NCBI RefSeq assembly: GCF_002127965.1
Contig: NZ_CP018787.1
Location: 1,302,001 to 1,366,000, forward strand
From: Oxalobacter formigenes
GTDB lineage: Bacteria; Pseudomonadota; Gammaproteobacteria; Burkholderiales; Burkholderiaceae_D
Length of the DNA: 64,000 nt
Direction of reading: 5' to 3'
Within the stretch, counting starts at the first letter, position 1. Each line of letters starts with the position of its first letter. The notes under the pieces are model-generated. The model made no database searches and had not been told where the DNA came from. It saw only the letters and a program-made list of their open reading frames with translations. Below, in pieces: positions 2,353 to 19,897 of this stretch. The translations under genes were made by a program, and so were the position numbers.

Positions 2353-2409
2353 GCCGTTAAATTTTTTGCGACATTCAAACATGAATAACTGATTTTTTGA
2401 ATAAATTGG

Positions 2410-2448
2410 CGTTAACACCTTGATAAGGCATGATTCAAGGTGTTAACG
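2410..2448. repeat. 14-bp perfect palindrome before the dCMP deaminase gene
   Basis: CGTTAACACCTTGA (2410-2423) is exactly repeated in inverse at 2435-2448 around 11 bases. It ends 44 bases before the preferred ATG at 2493. A weak promoter (TTGAAT at 2397, TTGATA at 2420) would place the -10 box inside it, which would suit a repressor site. A leader hairpin is the alternative. Confidence 0.7.
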
Positions 2449-2492
2449 TTCCCATCGGGTTACCTGTTCCAACCAGATCAAGACTGCCAGAC

Positions 2493-3017
2493 ATGCTAGA
2501 CATCAAACGTCAGAACTATTACATGAACATTGCCATAGCGGTGCGCGAGAATGCCAATTGCAAGGGACGCAAGGTCGGCGCTGTCATCGTCAGGGATAAC
2601 CGCATCATTTCGACAGGCTACAACGGTACACCGGAAGGCTTTACCAATTGCATGGATGGCGGGTGCGTCCGGTGTGGCAAGCGTGAAGAATACAGGCGCG
2701 AAGGCAAGAGGGGATATGACGAATGCATTTGTGTCCATGCCGAACAGAATGCCCTGATATCGGCTGCCCGGTTCGGGAATGCAATAGAGGATAGCGTCAT
2801 TTTCTCGACACTGCGTCCGTGCTTCGATTGCACCAAGCTGATGCTTCAGGCCAAAATCAGGGCCGTTTACTATCTTCATGACCTTGGAAAACTGGATGAT
2901 GCTGAACTGCAGGGGCAGTATGAACTATTGCAGTCGAAGTTTATCGAGGGTGTCTATCACGTGGATTTTGAAGACCCGAGAGCGGATTGGGCGAATGCCG
3001 TTTTGCCGAAAAAATAA
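2493..3017 (+). CDS. dCMP deaminase family protein (ComEB-like)
   Basis: A cytoplasmic zinc-dependent deaminase, about 174 residues, of the type that converts dCMP to dUMP for thymidylate supply. The zinc and proton-transfer site is visible as CVHAEQNAL (His ligand and catalytic Glu) and PCFDCTK (two Cys ligands). It also has the dCMP deaminase-specific insert with CMDGGCVRC that carries extra cysteines, and the GYNGTPEGFTNC substrate loop. The ATG at 2493 was chosen because the alternative ATG at 2430 lies inside a perfect palindrome and the family normally begins with a few residues before the first helix. The gene ends 18 bases before the convergent acr3. Confidence 0.88.
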   Translation: MLDIKRQNYYMNIAIAVRENANCKGRKVGAVIVRDNRIISTGYNGTPEGFTNCMDGGCVRCGKREEYRREGKRGYDECICVHAEQNALISAARFGNAIEDSVIFSTLRPCFDCTKLMLQAKIRAVYYLHDLGKLDDAELQGQYELLQSKFIEGVYHVDFEDPRADWANAVLPKK

Positions 3018-3035
3018 GGCCCTTGTCTGCTCGCA

Positions 3036-4097
3036 TTATTTTTCGAAGGTGTTCTGACGGGCGAAATAGTGTCTGCCAATCCACAAGGCAACGTTCACCA
3101 AAGCGATCAGGACAGGGACTTCCACCAGTGGTCCGATGACGGTCGCAAATGCCTGTGGTGAAGCGAGGCCGAAAGCTGAAATGGCGACAGCGATGGCCAG
3201 TTCAAAGTTATTGCTTGCTGCCGTGAATGACATGGCGGTGGTTTTCGCATAATCCTGCCGTGCCCATTTACCCAGTGCATAACTGACCAGAAACATAACG
3301 ACGAAGTAAATCAGCAGGGGAACGGCAATCAGCAAGGCATCCATCGGGAGTTTGAGGACATCGTTTCCTTTCAGGCTGAACATCGCCACAATCGTGAAAA
3401 GCAGGGCTACAAGGGTAAAAGGGCTGATGCGCGGTATGAATTTTGTTTCATACCAGTCGTTTCCTTTCATCCTCCTGAGCAACAGGCGAGTGAAGAATCC
3501 GGCTATGAATGGAATGCCAAGATAGATCAATACGGCCCGTGCTATCGTCAGGAAATCTACATTGATGATATTGCCTTCCAATCCGAAAAAAGGGGGGAGG
3601 AAGGTGAGGTAAAACCAGGCAAACAGGCTGAAAAACAGGATCTGGAAAATCGAATTGAAGGCAACCAGACCGGCAACGTAATCATTGTCACCGCAGGCAA
3701 GCTGATTCCAGACCAATACCATGGCAATGCATCTGGCCAGACCAATCAGAATAAGGCCTGTCATGTAACCCGGATAATCGTGCAGGAAAAAAATCGCCAG
3801 AAAAAACATCAGCGCCGGACCGATAAGCCAGTTCTGAATAAGTGACAGGACAAGAATCTTCTTGTCTGCAAAGACTTCTTTCAGTTTTTCATATCTCACT
3901 TTTGCAAGTGGCGGATACATCATGACGATGAGGCCGATTGCAATAGGAATATTCGTCGTTCCGACAGAAAGGCTGTCAATGAAAGAGGGCAGGCCTGTGA
4001 ATATTGCGCCAAGGGTAATCCCGCATAGCATGGCTGCGAATATCCACAGGGTAAGGTAACGATCGAAAAAGGAGAGCCCTCCTCTATGTGCCGTCAT
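3036..4097 (-). CDS. acr3: Arsenite efflux permease Acr3
   Basis: A 353-residue inner-membrane carrier with about ten membrane segments that expels arsenite (and sometimes antimonite) using the proton gradient. Family signatures include the opening [11 protein letters not shown] segment, [19 protein letters not shown], and [20 protein letters not shown] with the conserved cysteine that binds As(III) in the fourth segment. [20 protein letters not shown] and a late EVPVLIALV complete the set. The ATG at 4097 follows a GAGGT ribosome site that overlaps the arsM stop region, so it is preferred to the TTG at 4109. It is the last gene of arsR-arsM-acr3. Confidence 0.95.
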
Positions 4098-4105
4098 TTT
4101 CGACC

Positions 4106-4945
4106 TCAAGGTTTTCTAGCTTCAATACTCAGGCTGACGACGTAGTTTTCGAGTTTTTCTCCTGCGGGAAGGGATTCGGCAATTTCCCGGTAAAGGGGAT
4201 CGTTCCAGTCCTGCATTTGGCGGATATATCCTTGTTTGGGAGTCAGGACGATATCCGTAAAACCGGTTTTTTCCAGCATTTGACGGGTTTCATCGACCAG
4301 AACAGCACCGGCAACACAGCCGACCAGAGCGGCAGCCATACTGCGTACATTTTCGGGAAGCGGTTTCAAAATGGCCAGATCGGATACGGACAGTTTGCCA
4401 CCGGATTTCAAAACGCGGTGAATTTCCTTCCAGACCTGCGGTTTGTCAGGAGACAGGTTGATGACGCAGTTTGAAAGAACCACGTCAACCGTATTGTCCG
4501 CGACAGGGAGATGCTCGATTTCCCCAAGCCTGAATTCGACGTTATCCAGCCCGGTACGCTCGCGGTATTGCCGGATATTATGGCGTGCTTTTTCCAGCAT
4601 TTCAGGCGTCATGTCGACACCGATGACGTGTCCGGCCGCTTTCACTTTTTCACCCGCCTGAAAGACGTCGAATCCGCCGCCGCTGCCGAGATCCAGCACG
4701 GTCTGGCCGTCTTGCAAGGCAGCGATGGCAACCGGATTTCCGCAGGACAGGCCCATGTTGGCACCATCCGGCAGATTGGCAAGATCTTCTTCATCGTATC
4801 CGATGGCGGCGGCCAGACGGGCGGGATCGGCTGGGCCACTGCGGTCGCTGCAACAACAGGGGCTGGCCTGACCGATGGCAATGGCACGGTAACCGGTACG
4901 GACGGTTTCCCGGATTTCCTGTTCGTTTTTATCCTGTTTGCTCAT
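4106..4945 (-). CDS. arsM: Arsenite S-adenosylmethionine methyltransferase ArsM
   Basis: A 279-residue cytoplasmic enzyme that methylates arsenite with S-adenosylmethionine to methylated, partly volatile arsenicals. The Rossmann methyltransferase core is clear: [11 protein letters not shown] binds [12 protein letters not shown] follows, and [12 protein letters not shown] carries one of the arsenic-binding cysteines. A second expected cysteine is in LVGCVAGAV, and an N-terminal cluster CCCSD precedes the fold. The ATG at 4945 has an AAGGATT ribosome site. An upstream start at 5038 would overlap arsR by more than 50 bases and was rejected. Downstream it almost touches acr3. Methylation and efflux are therefore coupled in one arsenic-controlled operon. 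Confidence 0.95.
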
Positions 4946-4983
4946 TTGAGTAATCCTTAATGTTAAATAGCTGACCTGAGAAA

Positions 4984-5355
4984 TCAGGTATCCGATTTTT
5001 CGGACGGAAGTGGGGGAAGCCATTCCGGAGGAACGCAACTTTGTTCACGATAACTCCGGCATTTGCCTGTATTTCCCTGACAGCATTCTTCAGTCAGGTA
5101 AGCGATCAAATCGAGCATCAGGGGGATACTGGCGCGATAACGTAAAAACCGGCCTTCCTTTTCCATACTGACCATTCCACTATGGGTCAGGTTTTTCAGG
5201 TGAAAAGACAGGTTATTGGCCGGAATGTTCAATTGATTGGCAATATCGCCCGCAACAAGGCCATCCGGAGCGTGTTTGACGAGCAGGCGGAATATCTCCA
5301 GACGGATGTCTGAAGACAAGGCTTCAAAAAGGGAAGAGGCGTTTTCTGTTTTCAT
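4984..5355 (-). CDS. arsR: Arsenic-responsive repressor ArsR
   Basis: A 123-residue winged-helix repressor of the ArsR/SmtB family that releases DNA when As(III) binds. The helix-turn-helix is at about residues 33-60 (ANQLNIPANNLSFHLKNL). The metal site is not the classic ELCVCDL in the recognition helix; instead the C-terminal part has TEECCQGN followed by GKC. This pattern of a vicinal Cys pair plus a third Cys matches the C-terminal As(III) site known from the Acidithiobacillus type of ArsR. It is the first gene of the operon and a palindromic operator touches its start codon, which suggests autoregulation. Confidence 0.93.
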   Translation of the reverse strand: MKTENASSLFEALSSDIRLEIFRLLVKHAPDGLVAGDIANQLNIPANNLSFHLKNLTHSGMVSMEKEGRFLRYRASIPLMLDLIAYLTEECCQGNTGKCRSYREQSCVPPEWLPPLPSEKSDT

Positions 5356-5383
5356 ATTTCAATGATACAACAAATATTGAAAT
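5356..5383 (-). promoter_or_regulatory. Probable ArsR operator
   Basis: ATTTCAAT (5356-5363) and ATTGAAAT (5376-5383) form a perfect 8-bp inverted repeat around 12 bases, right against the arsR start codon. Size and position match ArsR-type operators; binding itself is inferred. Confidence 0.65.
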
Positions 5384-5601
5384 GATGTGAAGGATAAAGT
5401 GCTGAAAATGGTATCCGATTCTCATTTTCAGTAATTCAGGGGAATAATTATTTTCTTTCAGTGTTAGTACAAGCTGATCCGTCTGGAATTCAGGATGGAT
5501 TGATGCTTTGCGTTCAACGTACGAGGCAGGCGAAAAGGATATTTCCACAGAACGGAAATATGCCGGTTAAACCGGTTAACACGCCTGATGGTTTGCAAAT
5601 G

Positions 5602-5631
5602 AAAAAAGGATGCTTTAAAAAGCATCCTTTT
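5602..5631 (-). terminator. Terminator after the GyrI-like gene
   Basis: An 11-bp stem (5604-5614 with 5621-5631) has T runs on both strands, so it can stop transcripts from the minus-strand gene ending at 5676. The remainder of the 5384-5675 gap shows no convincing gene. Confidence 0.8.
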
Positions 5632-5675
5632 CGACTGAAAAATCCTGTGCTGTCAAAATGCGAACAGGATAAATA

Positions 5676-6161
5676 TCAGTTCGGCTCTTTCATGGTGACG
5701 GGGACGTAAATTTCAAAAAGGTCTCCTTCTTTCCACAGATAAGGGTAATGCTCGAAACTGATTCCCTTCCCGTCAATGGCATAATCGATTTGCGTTGGTG
5801 GCCATTCTTCATAAATGGCTTTATAGGCTTCTCCCAGTTTTTTGATACCGGGCACCTGGCAGGTCGCATACATGGCCAGTGGAATGGAGATAATTTCCAG
5901 ATCAGATGGAATCTTGTCTGTCGAATCGATTTCCACAGCCGCCCAGTAAGCAAACCTGTCATTATCGATCATTTTGCAGACACCATATGTAGAAGGCCTT
6001 TCCGGGATGGAATTGTTGACAGACAGCTCTCCATAAACCCGTGGGCCGAATGATTCCCAAAGCGCAGCACAATCTTTTTGCGCATTTTTCATATCCGTTT
6101 CAATTTTGATTCCGGCAACTTTTGTTTCCGGAAATTCGAGCACTGCAAATTCAAAATCCAT
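5676..6161 (-). CDS. GyrI-like small-molecule-binding domain protein
   Basis: A 161-residue stand-alone effector-binding domain of the GyrI/AraC-E (SOUL-like) fold, cytoplasmic. Such proteins bind small, often cationic or drug-like ligands, and some hydrolyse or sequester them. Recognisable parts are VAGIKIETD near the start and YGVCKMIDNDRFAYWAAVEID in the middle. The IPLAMYATCQVPG strand and GISFEHYPYLWKEGDLFEIYVPV at the end complete the pattern, with the conserved Glu-His-Tyr and Glu-Ile-Tyr-Val-Pro blocks. There is no DNA-binding domain, so it is not itself a regulator. An AGGAG ribosome site precedes the ATG. Its ligand is unknown. Confidence 0.85.
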   Translation of the reverse strand: MDFEFAVLEFPETKVAGIKIETDMKNAQKDCAALWESFGPRVYGELSVNNSIPERPSTYGVCKMIDNDRFAYWAAVEIDSTDKIPSDLEIISIPLAMYATCQVPGIKKLGEAYKAIYEEWPPTQIDYAIDGKGISFEHYPYLWKEGDLFEIYVPVTMKEPN

Positions 6162-6268
6162 GATGTTCTCCTGTCGAATGATGAAATATAAGGCTAGAAA
6201 GACACAGTTTGTTTATTGAAAATGAGCCTGTTTCCAATCCGTTTCATGACTGTCCTGAAAGCGTGTCA

Positions 6269-6541
6269 CTATTTATTAGCCCATTCCAGCACGTTCGGGC
6301 TTTGGACGTTCACGCCGAATTCCTGTGCTTTCGCCAGAATCCGGCGAGCCAGTTCAGGCTTGTCTTCATCCGAAGCGAGGTGAAAACGGGATTCGGCATC
6401 CCGGACATGTTCGGCATCCGGCATAGGGAATGCGCGTTTGCCGGGGATTCCGAATGCCGAATCGGGAAGTTCGCTGCGTCCTTCGGCAGTCAACCGGTCG
6501 GTACCGGGGTAATGGGGAAAGGGGTCGCGATGAGGTGTCAT
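6269..6541 (-). CDS. Small protein, DUF6582-like
   Basis: A 90-residue soluble protein with no signal peptide. The stretch LPDSAFGIPGKRAFPMPDAE followed by HVRDAESRFH, then RRILAKAQEFGV, resembles a small domain (DUF6582-like) found in phage and bacterial proteins with the pattern LPDsaFa-P-r-yPi-D-aHvrnA. Members often sit near phage head genes, but also occur alone. A GAGAAAG ribosome site is suitably placed. No function can be assigned. The neighbouring orphan tail-fibre gene makes a phage origin possible. Confidence 0.6.
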   Translation of the reverse strand: MTPHRDPFPHYPGTDRLTAEGRSELPDSAFGIPGKRAFPMPDAEHVRDAESRFHLASDEDKPELARRILAKAQEFGVNVQSPNVLEWANK

Positions 6542-6864
6542 TTTCGTACTTTCTCATTTTCTGTTTGGCATTTGAGCGTAGCATTTCTGTGAAAAAAGCT
6601 TTTGCCATACATCAGTCCCTGAATTTAAAGAGGAGAAATTGTCTGCTTTTCCTGTTGTTCCCGACTATCGCAAGAAAACAGGCAAAACAACAGGCGCTAC
6701 AACAAAAAGCCCTGAAATCGGCATGTTTTTAAATTTTGTTGTACCAGCTGACCGAAGAAAAATTGCCTGTTAGTATCTTTACCGGCGCGCCAACAAGTCC
6801 GTTGTATTTGATTAACTGACAACTCACCTTCACGCATAGTGACGGGAGCTTATGGGAAATTATT
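6542..6864. other. Gap without recognisable gene
   Basis: About 320 bases between divergent genes. No convincing ORF, tRNA or terminator was seen; it should contain the promoters of both neighbours. Confidence 0.5.
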
Positions 6865-8292
6865 ATGAATACATCATCTTCAGGCACTGCAAAAACCTCT
6901 CCACAAAATGACTTCAAACCCTTTGCTGTGGGAGAAGGAGCCAATGTCATCGAACAGTCCGAATACGAGAAATCAGGCTTTTTGAAAGAAGGCTTCAAAA
7001 AAGGCATGGCCCGGTCATCCGAAATCAACAAGGCCATACGACAGGGATCGTCCATAGCTGCAGCCGTTGCACGGTTCGCCGCCGCCAAAACCGGAGAAGC
7101 CCTCCTTGACAACGGCGACATCAATACCCTCTGCCGGCAAATCGAAACCGCGATCAGCTCGGTTTCCTCCCTTCTGATCGCCGAAGCCGACGGATCGGCA
7201 GATGCACTGACAGCGCACTTCACCCCGACAGTAAAAGAACTTGAAAACGGTCTCTTGGTGCACGTGCGCGCAAAGGAAAAAAATACCGGAACCAGCCCGA
7301 GCTTCAATGCCGATGAAACCGGAGAGAAACCCGTCGTCAAGGGAAACAACTTGCCACTGGAAGCCGCAGACATCGCCGGAGCCGGGCACTGGCTCGAAAT
7401 GCAATACGACGGTGCACTGGACAAATGGGTCTTGCAAAACCCCGCCAAAGGCATCACACCACCGTCTGGCGTACCCGTCGGCACCATCGAATACTTCGCC
7501 ATGCCAACCCCACCCGCAGGCTACCTGAAAGCCGATGGCGCAGCCGTGGGACGACAAACGTATCCGGAACTGTTTGAAACGATCGGGACGACCTTCGGGG
7601 AAGGCGATGGATCGACCACGTTTAATTTGCCTGATTTGATGGATCGGTTTGCGCAGGGGAGTGATGTACCAGGGCAGAAGGTGGAGGCGGGGCTGCCGAA
7701 TATAACCGGAGAAATCAATATAGATAATACCCTTGCCGGAATGTCTCATTACGAGGGGGCTTTATATCCAGTCAAATCATCCGGTTATAAAAATTCGCTG
7801 GCATCCAATAATAATGGTACGCCAGTTGCCTTTGATGCCTCACGCTCAAACCCCATCTACGGTGCATCCACTACCGTCCAGCCACCCGCATTGACCTTAT
7901 TACCCTGCATCAAGGCTTTCGATGCCGCCACCAATCCCGGCCTGATCGATATCACAGAGCTGGCCAATGAGGTCGCAACCCACAAACATGTGAACGAAAC
8001 GTATAACGACGGCACGAACTGGTATCGGAAATGGTCGGATGGCTGGCTGGAACAGGGCGGGTTTGCCGCAACTGATAATACTGGGCGTGGTGTTATTAAT
8101 TTGTTGCAGCCATACTCTACTGAGGATTACACAGTTTGTATAACCGCTTATGCGAGCCAGATTACGGGATTGTCGACCTGGACAGTTAAAGCCAGTAATC
8201 CGAAAACACAATCGAGTATTGGTATCGTGGCAAGCAGTGCTGATCCGGTCAGTTGTATGTGGCAAACATGTGGAAAAGGTATGCAGTCATGA
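6865..8292 (+). CDS. Phage tail-fibre/tail-collar protein, orphan
   Basis: A 475-residue protein of the phage tail-fibre type. The N-terminal third is helical. It is followed by a tail-collar domain (about residues 205-260), with the run VPVGTIEYFAMPTPPAGYLK, then DGAAVGRQTYPELFETIGT and FNLPDLMDRFAQG. After a second short repeat-like part, a receptor-binding tip contains NWYRKWSDGWLEQGG, a motif common at the distal ends of tail fibres. There are no head, baseplate, lysis or integrase genes nearby, so this is a single cargo or relic gene, or part of a contractile-tail device encoded elsewhere. No frameshift or truncation is visible. Confidence 0.85.
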   Translation: MNTSSSGTAKTSPQNDFKPFAVGEGANVIEQSEYEKSGFLKEGFKKGMARSSEINKAIRQGSSIAAAVARFAAAKTGEALLDNGDINTLCRQIETAISSVSSLLIAEADGSADALTAHFTPTVKELENGLLVHVRAKEKNTGTSPSFNADETGEKPVVKGNNLPLEAADIAGAGHWLEMQYDGALDKWVLQNPAKGITPPSGVPVGTIEYFAMPTPPAGYLKADGAAVGRQTYPELFETIGTTFGEGDGSTTFNLPDLMDRFAQGSDVPGQKVEAGLPNITGEINIDNTLAGMSHYEGALYPVKSSGYKNSLASNNNGTPVAFDASRSNPIYGASTTVQPPALTLLPCIKAFDAATNPGLIDITELANEVATHKHVNETYNDGTNWYRKWSDGWLEQGGFAATDNTGRGVINLLQPYSTEDYTVCITAYASQITGLSTWTVKASNPKTQSSIGIVASSADPVSCMWQTCGKGMQS

Positions 8293-8359
8293 GAAGGAAA
8301 TAAAAGATCATCAGGTCTGTTAAAAACTGAACAGACGTCAACATGTATATATCATATTT

Positions 8360-8637: not shown

Positions 8638-9561
8638 ATGCCAGACATAAAGAGACTGAATCTTATTACCTACCTTGGCCGGTATCTTTCCATTTTTCCG
8701 GCAAGTGTATCGCTTGCACAGGAGGTCTGCCGCGGGGAAGGGAAGATCCTGCTAGGTGCGGAAATGGATGGTGTTCCATGTGGCTTGCTGATTGCCGATT
8801 CACAGCAGGATGAAAAGCTTCTGCTTGAATACATCCGGATAAATGAGGATAGTCTCAGGATGGGCATCGCAACCGCATTGATAAATGCCTGTGTTGAATT
8901 GGCACCGGGAAGAAACCTTGAATGCCATGTGACGCTTGTCGATGAAGCTGATTTGGGTCTGATGCGCTTTCTTGAAAAACTCGGTTTTGAACATGTCGAC
9001 TCGTCCGATACAGTCGTTATCGACAGGAACGGTACGACTGTCAGGCAGTGGGAAGATTTCATGGCTGCCAAAGGGTCAGGTCTTATTCGCCGTTTGGAAA
9101 AAAAGGGACTTCGGGTCGTGAGTATGGCCGAGGCAGGAAAAACCGTTATGTCTAGTCTGGAAAAAAACCTTGATGGCCGATTTCCGGATGACATGAATCC
9201 GTTTTTCGCTTCGCACGATATTCTGGTCGATTACAGTTTTATCGTTCTGAAAGGAAGCGAACCGCTTGCCTACAGTATCGTCGTATCCGATGATGGCGGG
9301 AAAACGGCAATTGTCCAGTTTCTGGCAACGGCCTCGGATTACGTGGGGAGTGGTGTGTTTTTCATGTGTCTGGCGTCGTCCATTTCGGCTTTTGCGAGAG
9401 GCGAACAATGCAGCAAGGTGGCTTATACCGTATTTGAAAAGAATATGGAGATGCGGAAAATTCAGGAGAAGTACCTCGCATTCAAAGGACAGCAGTTCTG
9501 GCGGCAGTTTTTATTCCGGAAAAGCGGGCAGTTTCTGGCAGGTGCAAAACTGTGTGGTTGA
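8638..9561 (+). CDS. Tandem GNAT-type acyltransferase of the lanthipeptide locus
   Basis: A 307-residue cytoplasmic protein that looks like two GNAT folds in a row. The first half has the acyl-CoA-binding signature as SLRMGIATALINAC (R-x-G-I-A type motif A) and the following FLEKLGFEHVDSSDT block. The second half (about 170-300) has a GNAT-like strand order with YSFIVLKGSEPLAYSIVV but a degenerate CoA loop, a plausible inactive or substrate-binding half. It lies 42 bases before a Nif11-leader precursor gene and two genes before lanM, so it most likely acylates that peptide. In known Nif11-leader pathways (selidamides) GNAT enzymes fatty-acylate Lys or Orn side chains. The acyl group and target here are inference. 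An immunity acetyltransferase is the alternative. Confidence 0.78.
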   Translation: MPDIKRLNLITYLGRYLSIFPASVSLAQEVCRGEGKILLGAEMDGVPCGLLIADSQQDEKLLLEYIRINEDSLRMGIATALINACVELAPGRNLECHVTLVDEADLGLMRFLEKLGFEHVDSSDTVVIDRNGTTVRQWEDFMAAKGSGLIRRLEKKGLRVVSMAEAGKTVMSSLEKNLDGRFPDDMNPFFASHDILVDYSFIVLKGSEPLAYSIVVSDDGGKTAIVQFLATASDYVGSGVFFMCLASSISAFARGEQCSKVAYTVFEKNMEMRKIQEKYLAFKGQQFWRQFLFRKSGQFLAGAKLCG

Positions 9562-9603
9562 TTTTTTCAGGTGTATTTCTTTCAATTTTTACAGGAGGAC
9601 AGT

Positions 9604-9924
9604 ATGAGTATCGACGCGATTATCAAAAAAATGTCGGAAGATGAAAAATTTGCCGAAAAGTATGCCAAATTCGACAATCTGGACGCTGTTCTTGAACAGG
9701 CTAAAGCTGACGGATATTCGATTACGAAAGAGGATATTGAAAAATATATCGCCAGCCACAAGTCGGGCGGGGTGAGCGGCAAGCAACTAAGCAAGTCGGC
9801 TGGTGGCAAGGGAAACAAGAAAGCATGGTCTGTCGTAGGTATGATCGGTTCGCTGGCAACCGGTATGACCGGCGGCGGTTGCCCGACCTATGAAAAAATG
9901 AGTCAGGGCGCATGCGGTTTCTGA
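9604..9924 (+). CDS. Nif11-leader lanthipeptide precursor peptide
   Basis: A 106-residue precursor. Residues 1-55 are a Nif11-type leader, with NLDAVLEQAKADGYSITKED as the diagnostic core. Leader removal probably occurs after a double glycine at residues 67-68, within QLSKSAGG, leaving a 38-residue core. That core begins with a cationic KGNKK, continues with a hydrophobic Gly-rich stretch and ends in GGGCPTYEKMSQGACGF. The only two cysteines are C93 and C104. T89 and S100 each stand four positions before one of them, so two equal-sized lanthionine-type rings are possible. AGGAGG lies six bases before the ATG. The gene sits between the GNAT gene and lanM in one evident operon. Cleavage at the later GGG (90-92) would give a 14-16-residue core instead. 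Confidence 0.88.
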   Translation: MSIDAIIKKMSEDEKFAEKYAKFDNLDAVLEQAKADGYSITKEDIEKYIASHKSGGVSGKQLSKSAGGKGNKKAWSVVGMIGSLATGMTGGGCPTYEKMSQGACGF

Positions 9925-9961
9925 TGGATTTGTCCGGCTGGATTTGAATAATTTTCTGTTG

Positions 9962-12900
9962 ATGAAAATGACGGATGACATGGCGTTCGAACTGTCCGGC
10001 AAGAGCAGGAATCTTCTGGAACAGGGGAATGCCGGTTGTCCGGAACAGTTGAAGGAATGGTTTGACGACTGGTGTCGAATATCTTTCGATGGCGATGTTC
10101 AATCATTTCATAGAAGATTGTCTCTTTTTGCCGGCGCCACTGCTTTAGCTGAACGGGATGATTCTGGTACTCAAAGGATTGCGCGCTGGGTTCGCGAGAT
10201 CGAAAAGATCAACGCTCTGATGCCGACAACGCGCCAGCGTATTCTTTCCCGCATTCAGTACAATCCTTTTGGTGGGGATGACTTACCGGAAGATTTCTTT
10301 TCTTTTATTGCCCCCGTTATCGTTTATCTTGAAAACAGGCTTAAACCTGTTTTTGGCCTGAAAACAAAAAACGGAGACGCGTTTCTTGAAGAGGCAGCCT
10401 GTCAGGATATCGTCACGAACGGAACGCGTCACATTCTTCAGATATACGATTTCTTTTCGCTCGATGCATTGAACGATATGGCGCCCGGCATATTGCCATT
10501 GCCTTTTCCCGCTCTGAAAAAATATTACGACGCTTTCAGTTCGCAAATGCTTGATGGAGGACTCGCCGGGGCGTTTCACGAGTGTCCGGTGCTCGGCAAA
10601 ATGACAATTGATTATATTGACGGGTATGTCGGACATCTAAAAGAATGCCTCTCCCGGATGTTGCACGATAGCGATAAACTGCGGGAAACGTTCGGATGTT
10701 CAGGAGAAATCTCCCGTCTCGGCCTTTCGCAGGGCGACCCCCATAACGGAGGTCGTTCGGTCGTGATCGCCATGTTTGCCAATCGGGTGAAGGTGGTTTA
10801 CAAGCCTGGCAACGGCCGACTGGACAAGGCATTTGAAGCGTTTACGGATTATCTGGCTGAAATCGGGGCGATATGGCCGGTGAAATTGCCGAAACTGGTC
10901 TGCGCAGAAGACTACTGCTTCAAGGAATTCATGTCACATGATCCTCTGCCTTCAAAAGAAGCCGCCAGACGGTACTACCATCGTGCCGGTCAGCTGCTCT
11001 GTGTTGTCACATTGCTTGGTGCAAGTGATTTGCATGCCGAAAATGTCATTGCACACGGTGAATATCCGGTTATCGTCGATCTGGAAACGGTAGTGACCCC
11101 TGTTGTCAAGCGTTTTGCCACACAGGATGAAGATGAAATAGATAAAAAGGGCACAGGAAATTCCATTCTGGATAGCGGGCTACTATTCGCCCGCTTCGAT
11201 GGTTTCAATGGGGACAAGGGTGGCATTGCCGTCACGCATTCCGACGGGATGAATGTGCCTTTTTTTGCTGACCGACAGGAAATAGACGATGAAGATATCT
11301 GCTCTGGTTTGAAAGAAGGGTTTGAACAGACTTACCGTGCCATGTTGAAACAGCAGGATTCAATTATTGAAAAACTGAATGTCTTTTCCGGTTGTGATTG
11401 CCGTTTTCTTGTTCGTCCGACTCAGCTATATGTCGATTTGCTGAAGCAGATCCGTTATCCGGATGCCCTGAAAGACGGGATGTCACAAGGCTTTGAAATC
11501 GAAAAGAGTTTTTCGGCGTTCAGTTGCTGCCCGGATGATGCTGTCCTTCAGAAACTTTATGCCGTATATGAAGCGGAGTTCCTTTCGCTGGTCAAAGGCG
11601 ATGTACCTTATTTTTATACAAGCACGAATAAGCTATCCATTTGTTCCGGAACGAATGAACTTTATGACGGCTATTTTGAAAAAAGCGCATTGGAAAATGC
11701 CCGGGAATGTTTTCGCGGAATGTCAGAAAGCGGTTTGTCTCTCCAGTTGCACCTGCTGAAACGTTCGCTTGCCGCAGTATGGATTAGTGAGGAAAAACGG
11801 CCGTCGAATGCGTTTGTTTTTTCGTCTGAAGATAAAGTCAGGCGGTTGACGGTCGCAGAGATGCTTGAAGAGGCAGAGAGAATTTTTCAGGATATTCTGG
11901 ACAGTGCCATCCGGATAAATGGGGAACAGACTTGGTTCGTCAGTGAAATCGCCGCTTCAGATGCATCTGATGAAGCCATCAGCCAGAAACTGATGGATAA
12001 CTCTTTTTATAATGGTTTTTCAGGCCTGTCGGTTTTTGCCGGAGCGCTTTATCAATCGACCGGGCAACAAAAATACCGGGATTACGCACGGAAATGGCTG
12101 GAAAAATGTTTTCAGGATGCTGGCAGGCTAAAGGGAAAACAGCATGGGGGTGTAACGAATGGGCTTGGTGGCCTCTTGATGGCCTCTGCGCTTCTTGCCC
12201 AGTATCTCAATGAACCGCAATGGCTTGTGAAAGCCAATGTACTGGCGGAAGCGGGATTGGAGCTGTCGCCAGAACCCGATTATATGAGTGGTCTGGCCGG
12301 TTATATTATGGCACTGGACCGGATCGGCGCCCGAGCCACGCTGATGACAGAGGTTGCCGAAAAATTGCTGGCTCTGGCAAAAACGGTGGATGGTTTCCAT
12401 GTATGGCAATGCGATCAAAACAGTCGTCCATTGCTCGGGTTCGGGCATGGACAAAGCGGTTGCGCACTGGCATTGAAAAAGGTCTTCGATCGTACCCATG
12501 AAAGAAAATATCTGGATGCGGCGCTTTCGGCAATGGCATTTGAGCGGCAATGGCATCGTGAAGGGAAGGGCTGGCCGGATTTGCGTTTGTCCGACGATTC
12601 CGCCTTTGACGGGATGTGCGGTTTTTGCACAGGGGGCGCCGGTATTGGACTGGCCAGTCTTGACATGACTGGCATCTCCAGAGAAATCGATGAATGGATG
12701 CTGGACAATATCGGTTTTGCCATTGAAAGCGTGAAACGTTTCGATATGCAGACCAGTGATACCCTTTGCTGTGGCAATATGAGCCGGGTGCATTTTCTGG
12801 TCAGCGCAGGCATAAGGCTGGACCGTCCCGACCTGATCGACGAGGCAGTCAACAGGATGTCATGGGTGGCCGCCAGAAAAAAACGGTTCGGGCACTATAT

Positions 12901-13000
12901 TTTGAACACGAAAGCGGAATTGACCGAAGTGGGATGGTTCAACGGGCTTGCTGGGGTGGGATATGAACTTCTACGATTGGTGAAAATGGGACAAAAATAA
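9962..13000 (+). CDS. lanM: Class II lanthipeptide synthetase LanM, CCG type
   Basis: A bifunctional cytoplasmic enzyme of about 1012 residues, the usual LanM size. The N-terminal dehydratase domain phosphorylates Ser/Thr of the precursor and removes phosphate. Its kinase-like catalytic block is seen as SDLHAEN (11024-11044), followed by VIVDLET. The C-terminal LanC-like cyclase has the barrel motifs GVTNGLGG and GFGHGQSG. Its zinc ligands are FCTGG (Cys at 12626) and CCGN (two Cys at 12767-12772). CCG in place of CHG marks the ProcM-like branch with three cysteine ligands, which in cyanobacteria handles varied precursors. The start is uncertain: no good ribosome site precedes ATG 9962, ATG 9968 or TTG 9944, which suggests translational coupling to the precursor gene. 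Confidence 0.93.
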   Translation: MKMTDDMAFELSGKSRNLLEQGNAGCPEQLKEWFDDWCRISFDGDVQSFHRRLSLFAGATALAERDDSGTQRIARWVREIEKINALMPTTRQRILSRIQYNPFGGDDLPEDFFSFIAPVIVYLENRLKPVFGLKTKNGDAFLEEAACQDIVTNGTRHILQIYDFFSLDALNDMAPGILPLPFPALKKYYDAFSSQMLDGGLAGAFHECPVLGKMTIDYIDGYVGHLKECLSRMLHDSDKLRETFGCSGEISRLGLSQGDPHNGGRSVVIAMFANRVKVVYKPGNGRLDKAFEAFTDYLAEIGAIWPVKLPKLVCAEDYCFKEFMSHDPLPSKEAARRYYHRAGQLLCVVTLLGASDLHAENVIAHGEYPVIVDLETVVTPVVKRFATQDEDEIDKKGTGNSILDSGLLFARFDGFNGDKGGIAVTHSDGMNVPFFADRQEIDDEDICSGLKEGFEQTYRAMLKQQDSIIEKLNVFSGCDCRFLVRPTQLYVDLLKQIRYPDALKDGMSQGFEIEKSFSAFSCCPDDAVLQKLYAVYEAEFLSLVKGDVPYFYTSTNKLSICSGTNELYDGYFEKSALENARECFRGMSESGLSLQLHLLKRSLAAVWISEEKRPSNAFVFSSEDKVRRLTVAEMLEEAERIFQDILDSAIRINGEQTWFVSEIAASDASDEAISQKLMDNSFYNGFSGLSVFAGALYQSTGQQKYRDYARKWLEKCFQDAGRLKGKQHGGVTNGLGGLLMASALLAQYLNEPQWLVKANVLAEAGLELSPEPDYMSGLAGYIMALDRIGARATLMTEVAEKLLALAKTVDGFHVWQCDQNSRPLLGFGHGQSGCALALKKVFDRTHERKYLDAALSAMAFERQWHREGKGWPDLRLSDDSAFDGMCGFCTGGAGIGLASLDMTGISREIDEWMLDNIGFAIESVKRFDMQTSDTLCCGNMSRVHFLVSAGIRLDRPDLIDEAVNRMSWVAARKKRFGHYILNTKAELTEVGWFNGLAGVGYELLRLVKMGQK

Positions 13001-13037
13001 TAAATTCCCCACAAAAGGAATTTATATGGAACTGGTT

Positions 13038-13065
13038 AAAAAAGCCTGCTTTCACAGGCTTTTTT
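13038..13065. terminator. Bidirectional terminator after lanM
   Basis: An 11-bp stem (13038-13048 with 13055-13065) with A and T runs on both sides serves lanM and the convergent lipoprotein gene. It also marks the end of the lanthipeptide operon. Confidence 0.9.
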
Positions 13066-13073
13066 ATGGTTCT

Positions 13074-13910
13074 TTACTTTGTGTTTTGTAATGCCATTTC
13101 ATCAAATTGCTTGAGGCGAGAAGCTATATCCTGTTCGGATAAACGCGAATCCCCACGCCATTTTTTTTCTAATATGGTTCTGTTGGATAGCATTTTCTTT
13201 TCTGCATCGGCAAGTATAGACATGACTGCATTTCCATTTTCAGGTATTCGAATATTGGCCAGACATGCTTTGGTATCATTAGTCAAACAAATGTTATCAC
13301 CATCAATATAATTGGCCGATTCAATAATCATCCAGTTGGTTTTAATATTATTTTGTACGGCTGTGTATAAAGTGTCTTTGTTTTTGATGAGGAAAGGGGT
13401 GAGAAATTCACAATTATTCAACATTACGTTTTTCATAATGTAATTATTTATCTGGCATACGAGAGCCACCTTTTCGCCTTTTTTGATTTTTGCAAGCGTA
13501 TTTTCGGAATTGTTGTCAAATTGCGCGTGAACTCCCTGAAACATGCCTGATCCTGATAATAAAAGATATGGATTCCCTGTGATGTCCTTGGCAATGTCAT
13601 TTACATTTCCAAAGACAAGGACATTATGATTTTTATATTGCATATCTGCGGAAACTTCATTGGCAAAATAATCTTTCGATATCTTTAAGGATGAGACCGG
13701 ACCAACAAGATTCAAGGTTTTTAAAACCTCTTCCTTGCTCAAAAGAGCGGATTTGCCCAAAACGAGTGATGCACCTGCATCATCGACTGTCAGGTTTTTA
13801 ATAAAATTTTCACCTTTGATATTTGAAGAAGAGTTTTGACCGCTTTTCCCGCCACACGCAGCAAGAATGGATGTCAGTAATATAATTAGCGCCACTTTGC
13901 CCATCTTCAT
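13074..13910 (-). CDS. Lipoprotein with tRNA_anti-like OB fold
   Basis: A 278-residue envelope lipoprotein. The signal sequence ends in a clear lipobox, LAACGG, with lipidation at the cysteine at residue 19. The central part (about residues 95-170) has the pattern of the tRNA_anti-like OB-fold family: NHNVLVFGNVNDIAKDITG, then a Gly-rich strand, VHAQFDNN, and KIKKGEKVALVCQINNYIM ending in NCEF. In this family the fold is used outside nucleic-acid binding and its role is unknown. The gene is much richer in A and T than its neighbours, with runs such as AAT/AAA codons for Asn and Lys, which suggests recent arrival. It converges on lanM and is not obviously part of that pathway. Confidence 0.72.
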   Translation of the reverse strand: MKMGKVALIILLTSILAACGGKSGQNSSSNIKGENFIKNLTVDDAGASLVLGKSALLSKEEVLKTLNLVGPVSSLKISKDYFANEVSADMQYKNHNVLVFGNVNDIAKDITGNPYLLLSGSGMFQGVHAQFDNNSENTLAKIKKGEKVALVCQINNYIMKNVMLNNCEFLTPFLIKNKDTLYTAVQNNIKTNWMIIESANYIDGDNICLTNDTKACLANIRIPENGNAVMSILADAEKKMLSNRTILEKKWRGDSRLSEQDIASRLKQFDEMALQNTK

Positions 13911-14988: not shown

Positions 14989-16011
14989 TTAAAAGCCCAC
15001 ACTGATCACGACGGTATCGGTATAGGTTCCGGCAGGCGGGGTTGTCTGGCCTGTCAATACTTTCGAGTTGTAAACGAATCCCTGTGTTGAAGTGCCGGTT
15101 CCGGCACCCGGATTGACGTCGGCGCTTCCTGAAGCCCGGGTCTGTCCTGCCGTCGATCCCCAGCGTGTGGTGCCACTCGCTCCCTGATAAATTTCATAGT
15201 TGATGTAATTGCCGCCGTTGGCCATGCGTCGCTGGCCGCTGGATGCATTGCTGCCGTCTGAGAGACCGACGGTATAAGATGTGCCTTTGGTACACTGGAC
15301 GCTGATGGTTTGCGTGACAGGCGAAAAGGCACTGACAAGAGGGGCGGTGCCAAAGCTGATGTTGGGGGCGTTGATGGTGCAGTCATTGCCGATCGTCAGG
15401 CTGAGATTGACGACGCTTGAGGTCGAGCCGGTGTTGACGGGGCCGATACAAAGGTTGCCGACGCTGACGAGTGTGCAGATGCTCCAGCTCCAGTTGACCG
15501 TTACCGTATCGGTATAGGTGCCGCTGCTGAGATTCAAGGCTCCGGTAACCGTCCTGAAGTACATCGGCAGGGGAGCGTTGTTGCTGCCGGTGAGACCCAA
15601 AAGGTTCAACAGGGTGGAGTTGTAATAGTTGAGCGCCGTTCCCGGTGTGATCTGGTAAGTGTAAGTCTGGTCGGCAAAAATCTGGTAGGGAATGGTGTCA
15701 CCCGCGGCATTCTTGAGTTTGGAACCGTTGGTCGTGGAGACGACGGCATTGATGTAGCCCGGAGCGCCCAGAACAGTCAATAATGAACCACCGCAGGCCA
15801 CGCCTGCATTGGCGATCGATGTGTTTTGCGTGCTGCTGTTGATCTTGATGGACGTCTGGGAGCCAAAAGAAGCCGTACCCGTTCCGGTTGAAGCCTGACA
15901 GCCCGGTGCGGCGCTTGCCATGACCGGAAGCAGAAAACAGAGAAGTGCGACCAGCCACAGGCATGGTTTTTTCATGGTTTCAAGGCAGATGGATGGTATC
16001 TGACACGTCAT
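14989..16011 (-). CDS. CsuE-like pilus tip adhesin (two spore-coat-U domains)
   Basis: A 340-residue secreted protein, the last gene of an archaic chaperone-usher pilus operon. A signal peptide ends near VMASAAPGC. Two consecutive spore-coat-U (SCPU) domains follow, each an incomplete immunoglobulin-like fold needing a donor strand, and each closing with the family's GTYTDTV motif (SSGTYTDTVTVNWSW and PAGTYTDTVVISVGF). The two-domain layout matches CsuE, the tip adhesin of Acinetobacter Csu pili that attaches to surfaces by hydrophobic contact. The start at 16011 has an AAGGAA ribosome site inside the end of the usher gene; the inner ATG at 15975 would give a more compact signal peptide. Confidence 0.88.
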   Translation of the reverse strand: MTCQIPSICLETMKKPCLWLVALLCFLLPVMASAAPGCQASTGTGTASFGSQTSIKINSSTQNTSIANAGVACGGSLLTVLGAPGYINAVVSTTNGSKLKNAAGDTIPYQIFADQTYTYQITPGTALNYYNSTLLNLLGLTGSNNAPLPMYFRTVTGALNLSSGTYTDTVTVNWSWSICTLVSVGNLCIGPVNTGSTSSVVNLSLTIGNDCTINAPNISFGTAPLVSAFSPVTQTISVQCTKGTSYTVGLSDGSNASSGQRRMANGGNYINYEIYQGASGTTRWGSTAGQTRASGSADVNPGAGTGTSTQGFVYNSKVLTGQTTPPAGTYTDTVVISVGF

Positions 16012-16015
16012 ATGA

Positions 16016-18502
16016 TCATTCCTTTATGCATTCCAGTGGCCCGACTGTCGAGATAGTCCCGTTGGCTTTTTTCCTGTCCACGGAAAATGTGGTATGGCAC
16101 GGCTTGCCATCCGGCAGCGAAACGGAGACGCGATTTTCCGGATCGGCGTCGTCGAACCATGCAAAGCCATCCAGACCGACTGGCGAAATTTTTCCGGAAG
16201 CGAGTCGCGCGACAGAACCGGCGGGCAATGGTTTGTTCTGGCTGTCGACGAGCCGGATTCCGACAGGCAAGGTCTGTTTCACCGGAAAGCGCATGAGATA
16301 GCCGTTGCCGGATTTGACGGCGACGCGTTTTTCGACTTCGGGAACCTGCATGTCCAGCGGAAGGTTCAGGGGATCGATTTCGTATTTCGCTGCGTAATAT
16401 CCCGGTACAGACGGCACCATCAGATGGCCGTCAGGGTCGGTCGTGCCGATCAGGTTGTTTTCGTAACGTACCGGAATGGCAGGTACCCCGTCAGTCGAGA
16501 CGAGAACGAACGAATCCTGCACCATGTTTGTGGCAAAGACAGACTTGTCCATCATGACAAGGGCACCGCTCATTTCTCCCCATGTCGTATTGTTGTTGTC
16601 GGGGCCATAAAATCCGTCACGCATCTGCATCCTGTCGTTTCGCCAGGTCAGGTCGGCCTGCCGGTAGTTGGGGCCGGATGAATCGAAACTGTAGCCCAGA
16701 TTCCACCCGAGGCCACCGTCAGTCGGAACCGTCCGGCTGTAATCGAATCGCTGGGAATAGTCTCCCTGCTGATTGCGCGTCGTCGTAGTGGAAATGGTAT
16801 CCCTGTTTTGTTTTCCGAATGGCAGAATCCACTGGATGAAACCGGACCAGTCGCCGTCGTTACTGGATTTGTTGGCGGAAAGATAAAATGTACCGAAGTT
16901 GCCCGGAGTAATGCTCCATGTCAGGTTGGTCAGACGGGTCGTATTGCCGTCATTGTTTTTGATTGAAAAAATGCCTCCGCTCAGGCTGCCGAAATGCCCA
17001 ATGGGAATGCCGGCCGTGATCTGTACGCTTTGCTGGTAAGGCCGCTGCCAGATTCCGATGGTAGAAAGGTCACGCCAGTTTGGGCTGTATCGGACCCATT
17101 GGGCCGCAGCATTGAAATGCCGGTTGGTATATTGATAACCGCCCGTCATTTGCCGGCCACTCATCCTGTTGCCGGAACTGGCGCTGTACGAGGCATTCGC
17201 CACGCCGAACATCCCAAGCCGTACGGTTGCACCCAATCCGCCGACTGTCAGGGATTTCCCGCCTTCGACGTGCGACCCGACGGTCAGGGCATCCGTCAGC
17301 CCATATCTCAGGCTACCGCTATAAGCCAGTTTGCCGTAATCGAAACTGGCAATGCCATACCGTTGCCGCAAGACCCCGAAACTGGCAGCATAATCCGTGA
17401 GTCCTTTTTTCAGCAGCTCGCCTGTGACGTAGAAGGGCAGTGTGGTCGATACCTGTCGTCCAAGGGCATCGGTCGTCACCACGACCGCTTCGCCTGCTCC
17501 GTTGACGAACGGAGTCGTCGTGACGGAAAAAGGCCCGGGGTTCAACTGGTTGCTTTGTGCGCGGTTTCCATCGAGATACAGGTCTAGCGTTGAGGGAACG
17601 GCTGCCGATCCGGAAAACTGTGGCAGGGGGTAGGTTATGATATCGGGCCGGACACTGAAGTTTTTCGATATCTGGAAACCGCCGATCCGGACGGGATTGT
17701 TCCACGAAAGTCCCCGGGTCACGAGATCGCCGGCTTCATACGTCAGGATGCGGACTTCGTCTGAATAATGCCAGCGGGTGTCGTAACGGATATAGCCGCT
17801 TTGGCTTTCAGAGAGGTTGTCTGAAAAATTATGCCGGTATATGCCGGTGTTGGCGAGTGTGCCGTAAGGGCTGAAAAGCCGCAGTTCGCTCCATGCGTTG
17901 GTATTGCTTCCAGTCTGCTGGTTTTTCTGGACATAGATATCGTAATTGACCAGCATGCCGAGACCGGACTGTGGCGGGTAAAAAGGCCGCTTTTCCCTCA
18001 GGTCCAGTGTCTGTTCCGGGAGACTGTTTACGGGAACATTGATTCGTAATTGCTGGGCAGGACTGTCGTAATGGACTTTGATGCCTTTTGCATCGTCAAG
18101 GGCAATGTCAGTGTCACCGGAGGCGGTCAACTGATGTTGCCAGGGAGAAGATGGAATCCCTGCAGCAGCCAGATCACGTGTATTGACCCAGTACTGCCTG
18201 TTCCTGTAATGGACAGGGGCGACATGGCCGGTCGGCCGTTCATTGGCGACCAGTTCCCGATACAGGTTCATGTCCCGTTCTTTTGTCGTGGCAGAAAGGG
18301 CAGCCCGGTTTTCGGCATGGGCATTTGAAGTCAAAGCGGCCGGCAAGCCCATCAGTAAAAGATGGGATATCAGGATGGACAGGAGGGTACGAGTAACGGT
18401 TTTGCCTGAAACGTCGTCAGATACTGCGCAATATCGGGTTTCCGGTTTTAATGTTGACTGGCACTGTCTCCTTTTAATCGGCTTCTTCGACATTGGCGGC
18501 AT
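16016..18502 (-). CDS. Outer-membrane usher protein of archaic pilus (CsuD-like)
   Basis: An 828-residue outer-membrane usher that accepts chaperone-subunit complexes and threads the growing pilus. After a long signal region ending near SNAHA comes an N-terminal chaperone-docking domain (ELVANERPTGHVAP and YRNRQYWVNTRDLAAAGI). The 24-strand barrel follows, with the plug near VVTTDALGRQVSTTLPFYV, and then two C-terminal domains with VPSVPGYYAAKYEIDPLNLP. The order and the overlap with the chaperone gene by 29 bases are typical of csuC-csuD. A second possible start is the ATG at 18493. It is complete, with no frameshift. Confidence 0.92.
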   Translation of the reverse strand: MPPMSKKPIKRRQCQSTLKPETRYCAVSDDVSGKTVTRTLLSILISHLLLMGLPAALTSNAHAENRAALSATTKERDMNLYRELVANERPTGHVAPVHYRNRQYWVNTRDLAAAGIPSSPWQHQLTASGDTDIALDDAKGIKVHYDSPAQQLRINVPVNSLPEQTLDLREKRPFYPPQSGLGMLVNYDIYVQKNQQTGSNTNAWSELRLFSPYGTLANTGIYRHNFSDNLSESQSGYIRYDTRWHYSDEVRILTYEAGDLVTRGLSWNNPVRIGGFQISKNFSVRPDIITYPLPQFSGSAAVPSTLDLYLDGNRAQSNQLNPGPFSVTTTPFVNGAGEAVVVTTDALGRQVSTTLPFYVTGELLKKGLTDYAASFGVLRQRYGIASFDYGKLAYSGSLRYGLTDALTVGSHVEGGKSLTVGGLGATVRLGMFGVANASYSASSGNRMSGRQMTGGYQYTNRHFNAAAQWVRYSPNWRDLSTIGIWQRPYQQSVQITAGIPIGHFGSLSGGIFSIKNNDGNTTRLTNLTWSITPGNFGTFYLSANKSSNDGDWSGFIQWILPFGKQNRDTISTTTTRNQQGDYSQRFDYSRTVPTDGGLGWNLGYSFDSSGPNYRQADLTWRNDRMQMRDGFYGPDNNNTTWGEMSGALVMMDKSVFATNMVQDSFVLVSTDGVPAIPVRYENNLIGTTDPDGHLMVPSVPGYYAAKYEIDPLNLPLDMQVPEVEKRVAVKSGNGYLMRFPVKQTLPVGIRLVDSQNKPLPAGSVARLASGKISPVGLDGFAWFDDADPENRVSVSLPDGKPCHTTFSVDRKKANGTISTVGPLECIKE

Positions 18503-19283
18503 TTATTCTGACTAATTGTTTGCCGTTGATAATGCCCAGCAGCGTGCTGCCGGAACCCATTTTGGCCGTGACAGGCCAGCTCATCGTTTTGCCCGGCAGG
18601 ATATAACCGGCAGCTCCTCCCGGATCGGTTTTCATTCCGTCCGGCTTCGCAAACGTCAGGTTTCTCAGGTGGACGTGTATCGGCCCCTTGTTGCTGACTT
18701 CGAGTGTTTTCTGTTTCTGGTCGTTTTTGATGCGCCAGGACAGGGAGTTATCGACAATGGCCTTGTCCGCATCGGTTTTCCCGTTACCCTGCATGGACTG
18801 GCTGGAAAGTCCTTCGCCGAAAACAAAAACGGGAATGGAATAGCGCATACGGAATTTGACGCCATTCGTTACCTTCTGCGCTTCAGGCTCGACAGAGGGA
18901 ATCTCATCGAGAATGACACGGTAGGTCAGCTCTTTACCCGGCGGAGCAGGAGTGGTCCGTATCAGCCGGACCAGTTGCCGTTTGCCGGGTTCGATTTGCA
19001 TGATGGGAGGGCTGCCGACGATGTCGTTCTGTTCGGTCAGCTCTTCCTTGCCACCGGTGTGCGACCATGAATACACCCGCATCTGGTAGGTTTGCAGGGT
19101 ATTACCGCGGTTTTCCAGCCACATCGCGGCCGCTTTTTCCTTGCTGTCGATAAAAACATTGGTCGGCCAGATCAATATGGCCGCCGCAGCGGGCAACAGC
19201 CCGGTCAGGAAATAAGCAGCCACAAGCATCAGGAGCCGGGCAACACGGTTCTGTTTACCGTCAAGGTCTGTCAGTCGCATCAT
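18474..19283 (-). CDS. Periplasmic pilus chaperone (CsuC-like)
   Basis: A 269-residue periplasmic chaperone of the PapD/FimC superfamily, archaic branch. The signal peptide covers about residues 1-35 (LMLVAAYFLTGLLPAAAA). The first Ig-like domain begins with ILIWPTNVFID and contains WLENRGNTLQTYQMRVYSW. The subunit-binding edge is near PPIMQIEPGKRQLVRLIR, where the conserved Arg and the RxIR strand cap incoming pilins. The second domain ends at AAGYILPGKTMSWPV. It folds the SCPU pilins encoded beside it and hands them to the usher, whose gene overlaps its 3' end. Confidence 0.92.
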   Translation of the reverse strand: MMRLTDLDGKQNRVARLLMLVAAYFLTGLLPAAAAILIWPTNVFIDSKEKAAAMWLENRGNTLQTYQMRVYSWSHTGGKEELTEQNDIVGSPPIMQIEPGKRQLVRLIRTTPAPPGKELTYRVILDEIPSVEPEAQKVTNGVKFRMRYSIPVFVFGEGLSSQSMQGNGKTDADKAIVDNSLSWRIKNDQKQKTLEVSNKGPIHVHLRNLTFAKPDGMKTDPGGAAGYILPGKTMSWPVTAKMGSGSTLLGIINGKQLVRINAANVEEAD

Positions 19284-19347
19284 GGTCGTCTATCCTGAAA
19301 AAACGGGATGATTTTCAATTTGTATCCCGGTTAAAAATAAAAAGGCT

Positions 19348-19881: not shown

Positions 19882-19897
19882 CCTGGCACCGGTTTGG

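Follow-up and report, generated by a model that had tools for sequence, protein, structure and literature searches.

We analysed a stretch of 64,000 nucleotides from Oxalobacter formigenes (NCBI RefSeq assembly GCF_002127965.1, contig NZ_CP018787.1, positions 1,302,001 to 1,366,000), hereafter called the window, and found in it a compact three-gene locus that very likely encodes a class II lanthipeptide pathway. The three genes, all on the plus strand within window positions 8638-13000 and all with intact reading frames, encode a GNAT protein with two GNAT-like domains, a precursor peptide with a Nif11-type leader and a LanM synthetase. By analogy with the nostolysamide enzymes we lean towards the reading that the neighbouring GNAT puts a fatty acyl group on the first residue of the core peptide, Lys1. 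Among known systems the locus most likely belongs to the nostolysamide and selidamide kind, as a divergent representative from a betaproteobacterium.

Locus organization

The three genes stand close together, with 42 bases between the GNAT and precursor genes and 19 bases between the precursor gene and the TTG start of LanM, and AGGAGG is found directly 5' of the precursor ATG. This spacing, as well as the gene identities given in the initial annotation, was borne out by our analysis: the GNAT, the precursor and LanM matched PF00583, TIGR03798 and TIGR03897, respectively, and these family matches are far above chance. The terminator that had been proposed to close the locus was also found, as a hairpin with a T-rich tail, although it lies between convergent genes and may serve both LanM and the convergent gene at 13074-13910, and terminator-like sites across the region were not in excess (four, compared to a mean of 5.0 in shuffled sequences). 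Promoter-like sites were likewise at chance level (6 compared to 6.5 in shuffles). The guanine-cytosine (GC) content of the three genes is 0.48-0.49, while eight of the nine other compared genes are higher (0.52-0.59) and the ninth has 0.37; this difference is mild and not telling. The window is part of a genome assembled as one contig of 2.47 Mb. Coordinates are collected in Table 1.

Table 1. Features of the lanthipeptide locus, in window coordinates.
Feature	Position	Strand	Basis
GNAT, 307 residues, two GNAT-like domains, proposed precursor acyltransferase	8638..9561	+	PF00583; 4ava match; low-confidence model
Precursor, 106 residues, Nif11 leader and core	9604..9924	+	TIGR03798, PF07862
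Predicted leader, residues 1-68, ends SAGG	9604..9807	+	TIGR03798 match end; predicted cut
Predicted core, 38 residues, KGNKKAWSVVGMIGSLATGMTGGGCPTYEKMSQGACGF	9808..9921	+	starts after predicted leader; predicted cleavage site
LanM class II lanthipeptide synthetase, 1018 residues	9944..13000	+	TIGR03897; LicM2 and CylM structure matches
LanM dehydratase residues K287, D362, H364, N367, D379, E381, R487, R491, T493	10802..11422	+	alignment
LanM cyclase residue H835 and zinc ligands C895, C942, C943 (CCG type)	12446..12772	+	alignment
Terminator-like hairpin, 12 pairs, T-rich tail, 3' of LanM	13037..13066	+	

Precursor peptide

The precursor matched the Nif11 leader profile TIGR03798 (leader_Nif11) with an E-value of 5.4e-12 (45.8 bits, cut-off 32.3) and PF07862 with 9.6e-07, which upholds its earlier description as a Nif11-leader precursor of 106 residues, and it is the only match in the window's genome at E 0.001. 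TIGR03798 is matched up to its last position (68 of 68), which falls on the second Gly of SAGG (residue 68), and as the model ends there the core should be KGNKKAWSVVGMIGSLATGMTGGGCPTYEKMSQGACGF. Cleavage at one of two other glycine runs, HKSGG or MTGGG, is also possible, although the end of the profile favours SAGG. The predicted core starts with Lys and contains three further Lys (Lys4, Lys5 and Lys30), six Ser/Thr and two Cys (Cys25 and Cys36), and its N-terminal half is hydrophobic and Gly-rich. The unmodified core has a calculated monoisotopic mass of 3808.787.

LanM synthetase

In the curated profile search LanM matched TIGR03897 at 4.1e-168 (561 bits, cut-off 304), and both the DUF4135 (dehydratase) and the LANC_like domains were matched. 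Among solved structures it matched LicM2 (3.7e-53) and CylM (1.1e-36). The gene starts with TTG, and an in-frame ATG is present at 9962. The nine dehydratase residues listed in Table 1, whose catalytic roles we take to be those assigned in CylM, were invariant in an alignment of five rows (the window LanM and four distant LanMs) and were also kept when LanM was aligned to CylM. H835 was kept in comparison to LicM2, and His was absent at this position in two of the four distant LanMs. The three Cys zinc ligands are present, so that the designation of the enzyme as CCG-type LanM stands. To place this zinc set, 91 LanM-like open reading frames detected at 1e-10 were reduced to 88 of at least 850 residues, one per locus, which together with the window LanM gave 89 rows; of these 75, the window LanM included, carried CCC, six carried CCH and eight carried other sets. 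In a tree of 40 of these rows, chosen by the author and not including ProcM itself, the window LanM had an end branch of 2.95 and stood inside none of the starred sets. The most similar of the 39 other rows was 27% identical to it over 983 columns.

GNAT protein

The GNAT matched PF00583 at 6.3e-14 (52.7 bits), with two stretches passing and the best at residues 32-117, and residues 179-281 matched 4ava, a solved lysine acetyltransferase, at 0.0023, the only PDB match at 0.01. The two-domain GNAT proposed from the sequence is thus supported by the family matches, while the structure model, built on an alignment of eight rows, was of low confidence (predicted local distance difference test, pLDDT, 59; residues 92-147 and 284-307 below 50), and the domain arrangement in it is therefore not to be trusted. 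In a Foldseek comparison, this model gave alignments of approximately 300 columns with tandem GNATs of known structure (5kf1, VipF and the clavulanic acid tandem GNAT), although the TM-scores were low (about 0.2-0.3) and some of the matches are not GNATs; glucosamine and aminoglycoside acetyltransferases are among the top solved matches. A relative from one of the cyanobacterial loci described below (L061) was modelled at pLDDT 86.5 and shared many of its solved tandem GNAT matches with the window model. As the L061 protein and six further relatives were part of the alignment from which the window GNAT model was built, the two models do not agree independently of each other.

GNAT-associated LanM loci in other genomes

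Genome contigs were scanned for LanM, and the best 80 of 482 confirmed loci were kept, 65 of these 80 being cyanobacterial by title, with identities of 24-29% to the window LanM; a LanM closer to it may lie outside these 80. GNATs were then sought in the 80 loci with a pattern applied to open reading frames of 220-380 residues (five matches, two taken as GNATs), followed by phmmer. Six of the 80 loci held seven GNAT genes of one family, encoding approximately 290-340 residues and located near a Nif11 or NHLP-type precursor, a count that would miss GNATs lying past contig edges or unlike the two seed GNATs. The six loci come from five cyanobacteria (L061, L069, L086, L095 and L097) and from Paenibacillus (L109).

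The candidate precursors of L061, L097 and L109 have cores that start with Lys. Other first residues were found in the remaining loci. The core of L086 starts with Arg, and that of a second candidate on the opposite strand with Gly; L095 has Gln and, in its second candidate, Asn; the two candidate cores of L069 start with Ser and Trp. In L095, annotated as Aff. Roholtiella sp., two selidamide-type GNAT genes (184-1068 and 15733-16617) flank one LanM. The Nif11 core near these two genes is the one that starts with Gln, which indicates that Lys1 is no fixed rule for such enzymes.

Four of the cyanobacterial LanMs that stand beside a GNAT form a clade on the LanM tree (SH-aLRT 98), and the window enzyme lies outside it. 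Three changes of the trait are required on this tree to account for the six rows with a GNAT, so that GNAT association is not bound to one LanM clade.

Comparison to known systems

Prochlorosins carry a Nif11-type leader. The Oxalobacter locus shares this leader type with them, and it also has the CCG zinc set described for ProcM-type enzymes (PMC13060382), whereas enzymes of the ProcM type have many substrates and the window LanM has one. The closest likeness is to the nostolysamides, produced by the npu cluster of Nostoc punctiforme PCC 73102, in which the precursor NpuA has a Nif11 leader cut at Gly-Gly, NpuM is a three-Cys LanM and NpuN (WP_012412981.1) is a tandem GNAT (PMC13060382). The Oxalobacter locus shares with it the single precursor, the Nif11 leader ending in Gly-Gly, the three-Cys LanM, the tandem GNAT and a Lys as first core residue. 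NpuN was reported to transfer long-chain acyl groups onto Lys1 only, with relatively broad use of acyl-CoAs, and acylation of NpuA persisted in the variant K3A but was lost in K1A and in K1A/K3A (PMC13060382). The antibacterial and antifungal activity of the nostolysamides was independent of the acyl group (PMC13060382). The two systems also differ: the NpuA core has 25 residues and four Cys compared to 38 residues and two Cys in the window core, the npu host is a cyanobacterium, and the npu cluster encodes the PCAT NpuT, most related clusters encoding an ABC transporter (PMC13060382). Neither a PCAT nor an ABC transporter is encoded at the three-gene Oxalobacter locus.

In phaeornamide biosynthesis a GNAT and a LanM act on an NHLP precursor (PMC9505594). 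The window locus likewise combines GNAT and LanM in one cluster, and selidamides are acylated on the side chain of a basic residue (PMC9505594, PMC12703449). The phaeornamide cluster differs in its NHLP precursor, an ornithine-making arginase, a hydroxylase and the transporters phaT1/T2/T3, none of which was found among the window neighbours examined.

The initial annotation had suggested that acylation and lanthionine formation are joined in one small pathway. This remains a sound inference for the Oxalobacter locus, whereas the idea itself is not new, as the nostolysamides (PMC13060382) and phaeornamide (PMC9505594) combine the two. The suggested novelty holds in a similar, partial way: the betaproteobacterial host and the core are new, and a class II lanthipeptide gene in O. 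formigenes had already been published, in a BAGEL4 survey that found such a gene only in O. formigenes strains among the species studied (PMC9812493). The gene called there is most likely the window locus. The lanthipeptide passages of that article report the presence of the gene and do not describe a GNAT, a core or a pathway (PMC9812493). Oxalobacter is not mentioned in the passages of PMC2887384, and the records listed for Oxalobacter with Nif11, lanthipeptide or bacteriocin, in a coverage that leaves out most subscription journals, showed no description of this product.

Proposed pathway and its alternatives

Judged by the enzyme family and the residues present, LanM would bind the Nif11 leader, dehydrate some of the six core Ser/Thr and form thioether rings, two at most, with Cys25 and Cys36. 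The tandem GNAT would transfer an acyl group, most likely a fatty acyl, from acyl-CoA to the side chain of Lys1, as extrapolated from NpuN and NpuA; the leader end Gly-Gly followed by a core-initial Lys, as in NpuA, supports this. Further points in favour of the proposed pathway are the family matches of all three proteins, the conserved dehydratase and zinc residues, the closely spaced intact frames, the presence of similar GNATs in six of the 80 LanM loci (with Lys1 in three), the full-length alignment of the window GNAT to these GNATs at 17-20% identity, and the tandem GNAT structures matched by both models. The leader would be cut after SAGG by a protease encoded elsewhere, with no intact C39 enzyme recognised. 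Given the hydrophobic, Gly-rich N-terminal half of the core, the product could speculatively act on the membranes of competitors.

Several observations weigh against Lys1 acylation by an enzyme of the nostolysamide or selidamide kind. Single-sequence phmmer gave no match between the window GNAT and the selidamide-type GNATs. Profile comparisons with the selidamide-type GNATs, NpuN not among them, recognised only its N-terminal domain (10.3 bits in one comparison, probability 65% in another), which is weaker than the generic PF00583 match (10.3 compared to 52.7 bits). Its P-loops, LRMGIA and DYVGSG, both deviate from the consensus [QR]xxGx[GA] at the first position. Judged by sequence, the window GNAT is thus not detectably in the selidamide clade. 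It resembles the cyanobacterial GNATs in layout and setting, and NpuN in layout, a likeness that falls short of placing them in one clade. The low-confidence GNAT model and its dependence on the L061 protein, the long branch and unsure placement of LanM, and the fact that Lys1 beside such GNATs is not universal (three of six loci) count on the same side. So does the CWGSxC end of the cores in L061, L086, L095 and L097 (four of six loci), which is absent from the window core, and no intact C39 peptidase was found in the genome.

Part of this evidence would suit a plain class II lanthipeptide whose neighbouring GNAT acts elsewhere, for example in self-protection or on a small molecule. Generic GNAT models fit the window protein better than the selidamide profile, the top matches of the low-confidence model include glucosamine and aminoglycoside acetyltransferases, and GNAT genes were reported close to 198 of 1412 class II clusters in a survey that read them as toxin modules (PMC12715929). 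However, the tightly spaced run of three genes begins with the GNAT, both GNAT and LanM are unmatched in the 12 other Oxalobacter genomes, and the two-domain layout together with Lys1 is consistent with the nostolysamide case, for which a self-resistance role of NpuN was argued against (PMC13060382). We consider this explanation unlikely, if the foremost among those that we set beside Lys1 acylation.

The GNAT might instead add an acetyl or other short group, or act on another Lys or on the N terminus after cleavage. The core contains four Lys, chain length is unreadable from sequence, and the C-terminal P-loop DYVGSG differs from that of the cyanobacterial enzymes. As NpuN, the characterised tandem GNAT associated with Nif11 and LanM, transfers a long acyl group to Lys1 and to no other Lys (PMC13060382), we regard such a reaction as distinctly improbable in comparison to fatty acylation of Lys1.

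Leader removal and export

With a threshold of 0.01, PF03412 (Peptidase_C39) matched the genome only once, near 2.289 Mb. In alignment with two PCATs from LanM loci, Pro and Asn replace the catalytic Cys and His in this gene, which stands together with TolC-like, LapG-like, LapD-like and HlyD-like genes (names given by reading, with no family search). Based on the replaced catalytic positions and the Lap-type neighbours, the gene is probably an adhesin exporter. A subtilase was considered as LanP and is a doubtful candidate: the sole PF00082 match in the genome reads as an autotransporter-type gene far away, and not as an obvious leader peptidase. This gene is present in two pieces in different frames (L155 1312-2751 and 2769-3863), either as two genes or through a break.

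The absence of a recognised intact C39 peptidase is compatible with a relic, in which the frames are open and the product is no longer made, export and leader removal having been lost. The long LanM branch and the absence of GNAT and LanM from the 12 other Oxalobacter genomes searched could be read in the same manner. On the other hand, none of the three frames is broken, none of the catalytic residues examined is missing, and according to PMC9812493 more than one O. formigenes strain has the gene, which makes a relic very unlikely. Tentatively, and with little more than a minor share of our confidence, the GNAT may represent a separate tandem-GNAT lineage outside the NpuN clade that was recruited for lipidation, with maturation proceeding in the absence of a C39 peptidase. 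In this reading the leader would be removed by a protease encoded outside the cluster, or it would be retained, and the lipid tag would then anchor the peptide in the membrane of the producer rather than the peptide being exported.

The TolC-, LapG-, LapD-, LapB- and HlyD-like genes form a Lap-type group (L029 3445-11975, G000:C1 near 2.283-2.292 Mb). Window positions 55579-60681 hold a gene for a repeat-rich RTX-type surface protein of 1700 residues, and the two together look, with names assigned on reading, like a Lap-type adhesin system.

Distribution of the genes and identity of the host

The GNAT was found in its own genome only, both among 13 genomes of the genus and among 398 of the phylum (own included in each), and it had no match in plasmids at 0.01 and none in viral contigs, where a pattern scan that detects close relatives only was used. 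The precursor was searched in plasmids, with no match at 0.1, and in its own genome, where it is the one match. The 12 other Oxalobacter genomes, six of which are less than 90% complete, yielded no LanM match. In 293 other genomes of the family LanM matched in 13 at 0.001, 12 of these in frames of 420-501 residues, thus apparently LanC-like rather than LanM, and the other in a frame of 838 residues. At 1e-20, matches were obtained in three of 397 other phylum genomes, in two of 398 other order genomes, one of them a 34% stretch of approximately 210 residues, and in 38 plasmid records, with best identities of 25-27%. None was confirmed in viral contigs, and one partial match occurred in phages.

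Both flanks of the locus match other Oxalobacter genomes as pieces of 66-79% identity. In one of these genomes (G012) the pieces lie far apart, and an empty site is therefore unreadable. Insertion as a prophage or similar element was considered and found unsupported, with no standout flanking repeat pair and the sole tRNA of the window at position 1002.

The genome encodes an oxalyl-CoA decarboxylase (887.7 bits, curated cut-off 739.4), a cut-off that one of 14 control genomes passes too. Csy4 is a mark of type I-F CRISPR, and two Csy4 genes above cut-off are present (G000:C1 1846742-1847323 and 1996792-1997250). Type I-F CRISPR and the class II lanthipeptide gene have been described in O. formigenes, and type I-C in three sister species (PMC9812493). 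These markers, together with the lack of GNAT and LanM matches in the 12 other genomes of the genus, fit O. formigenes, a betaproteobacterium, as the most likely host. The two Csy4 genes may represent two type I-F systems, or the second one may be degenerate.

Significance

The three-part combination of GNAT, Nif11 leader and LanM is already known from cyanobacteria. What is new here is the host lineage, the core, the distance of the enzymes (full-length identity of at most 27% for LanM and at most 20% for the GNAT among the rows aligned) and the lack of an intact C39 peptidase among the genes found, which raises the question of how the leader is removed and the product exported. Should Lys1 indeed be acylated by the GNAT, the range of lipidated class II lanthipeptides would extend to betaproteobacteria and to the human gut, the host being an oxalate-eating gut species that is studied for the prevention of kidney stones. 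The locus could, speculatively, help to explain differences in competition between O. formigenes and its sister species, and, with only three genes, the set could be rebuilt in E. coli at once.

Neighbouring genes

Just upstream of the locus, at window positions 6865-8292 (DNA approximately 6747-8063), lies a phage tail-collar gene whose family is dispersed. In the window's genome 36 pieces matched the stretch 2400-8330, which is itself among them, and the others listed all fall within 6747-8063; another genome (G003) contained 14 pieces matching the tail-collar gene stretch. The gene convergent with LanM (13074-13910, minus strand) encodes a lipoprotein-like protein with a tRNA_anti-like domain and has a GC content of 0.37 compared to 0.48-0.59 in 11 other compared genes; a role in immunity is possible but unsupported. 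Further downstream, positions 14989-20533 on the minus strand hold an usher gene (Usher and PapC_C domains) and, by reading, chaperone-like and pilin-like genes, which together appear to form a chaperone-usher fimbria cluster.

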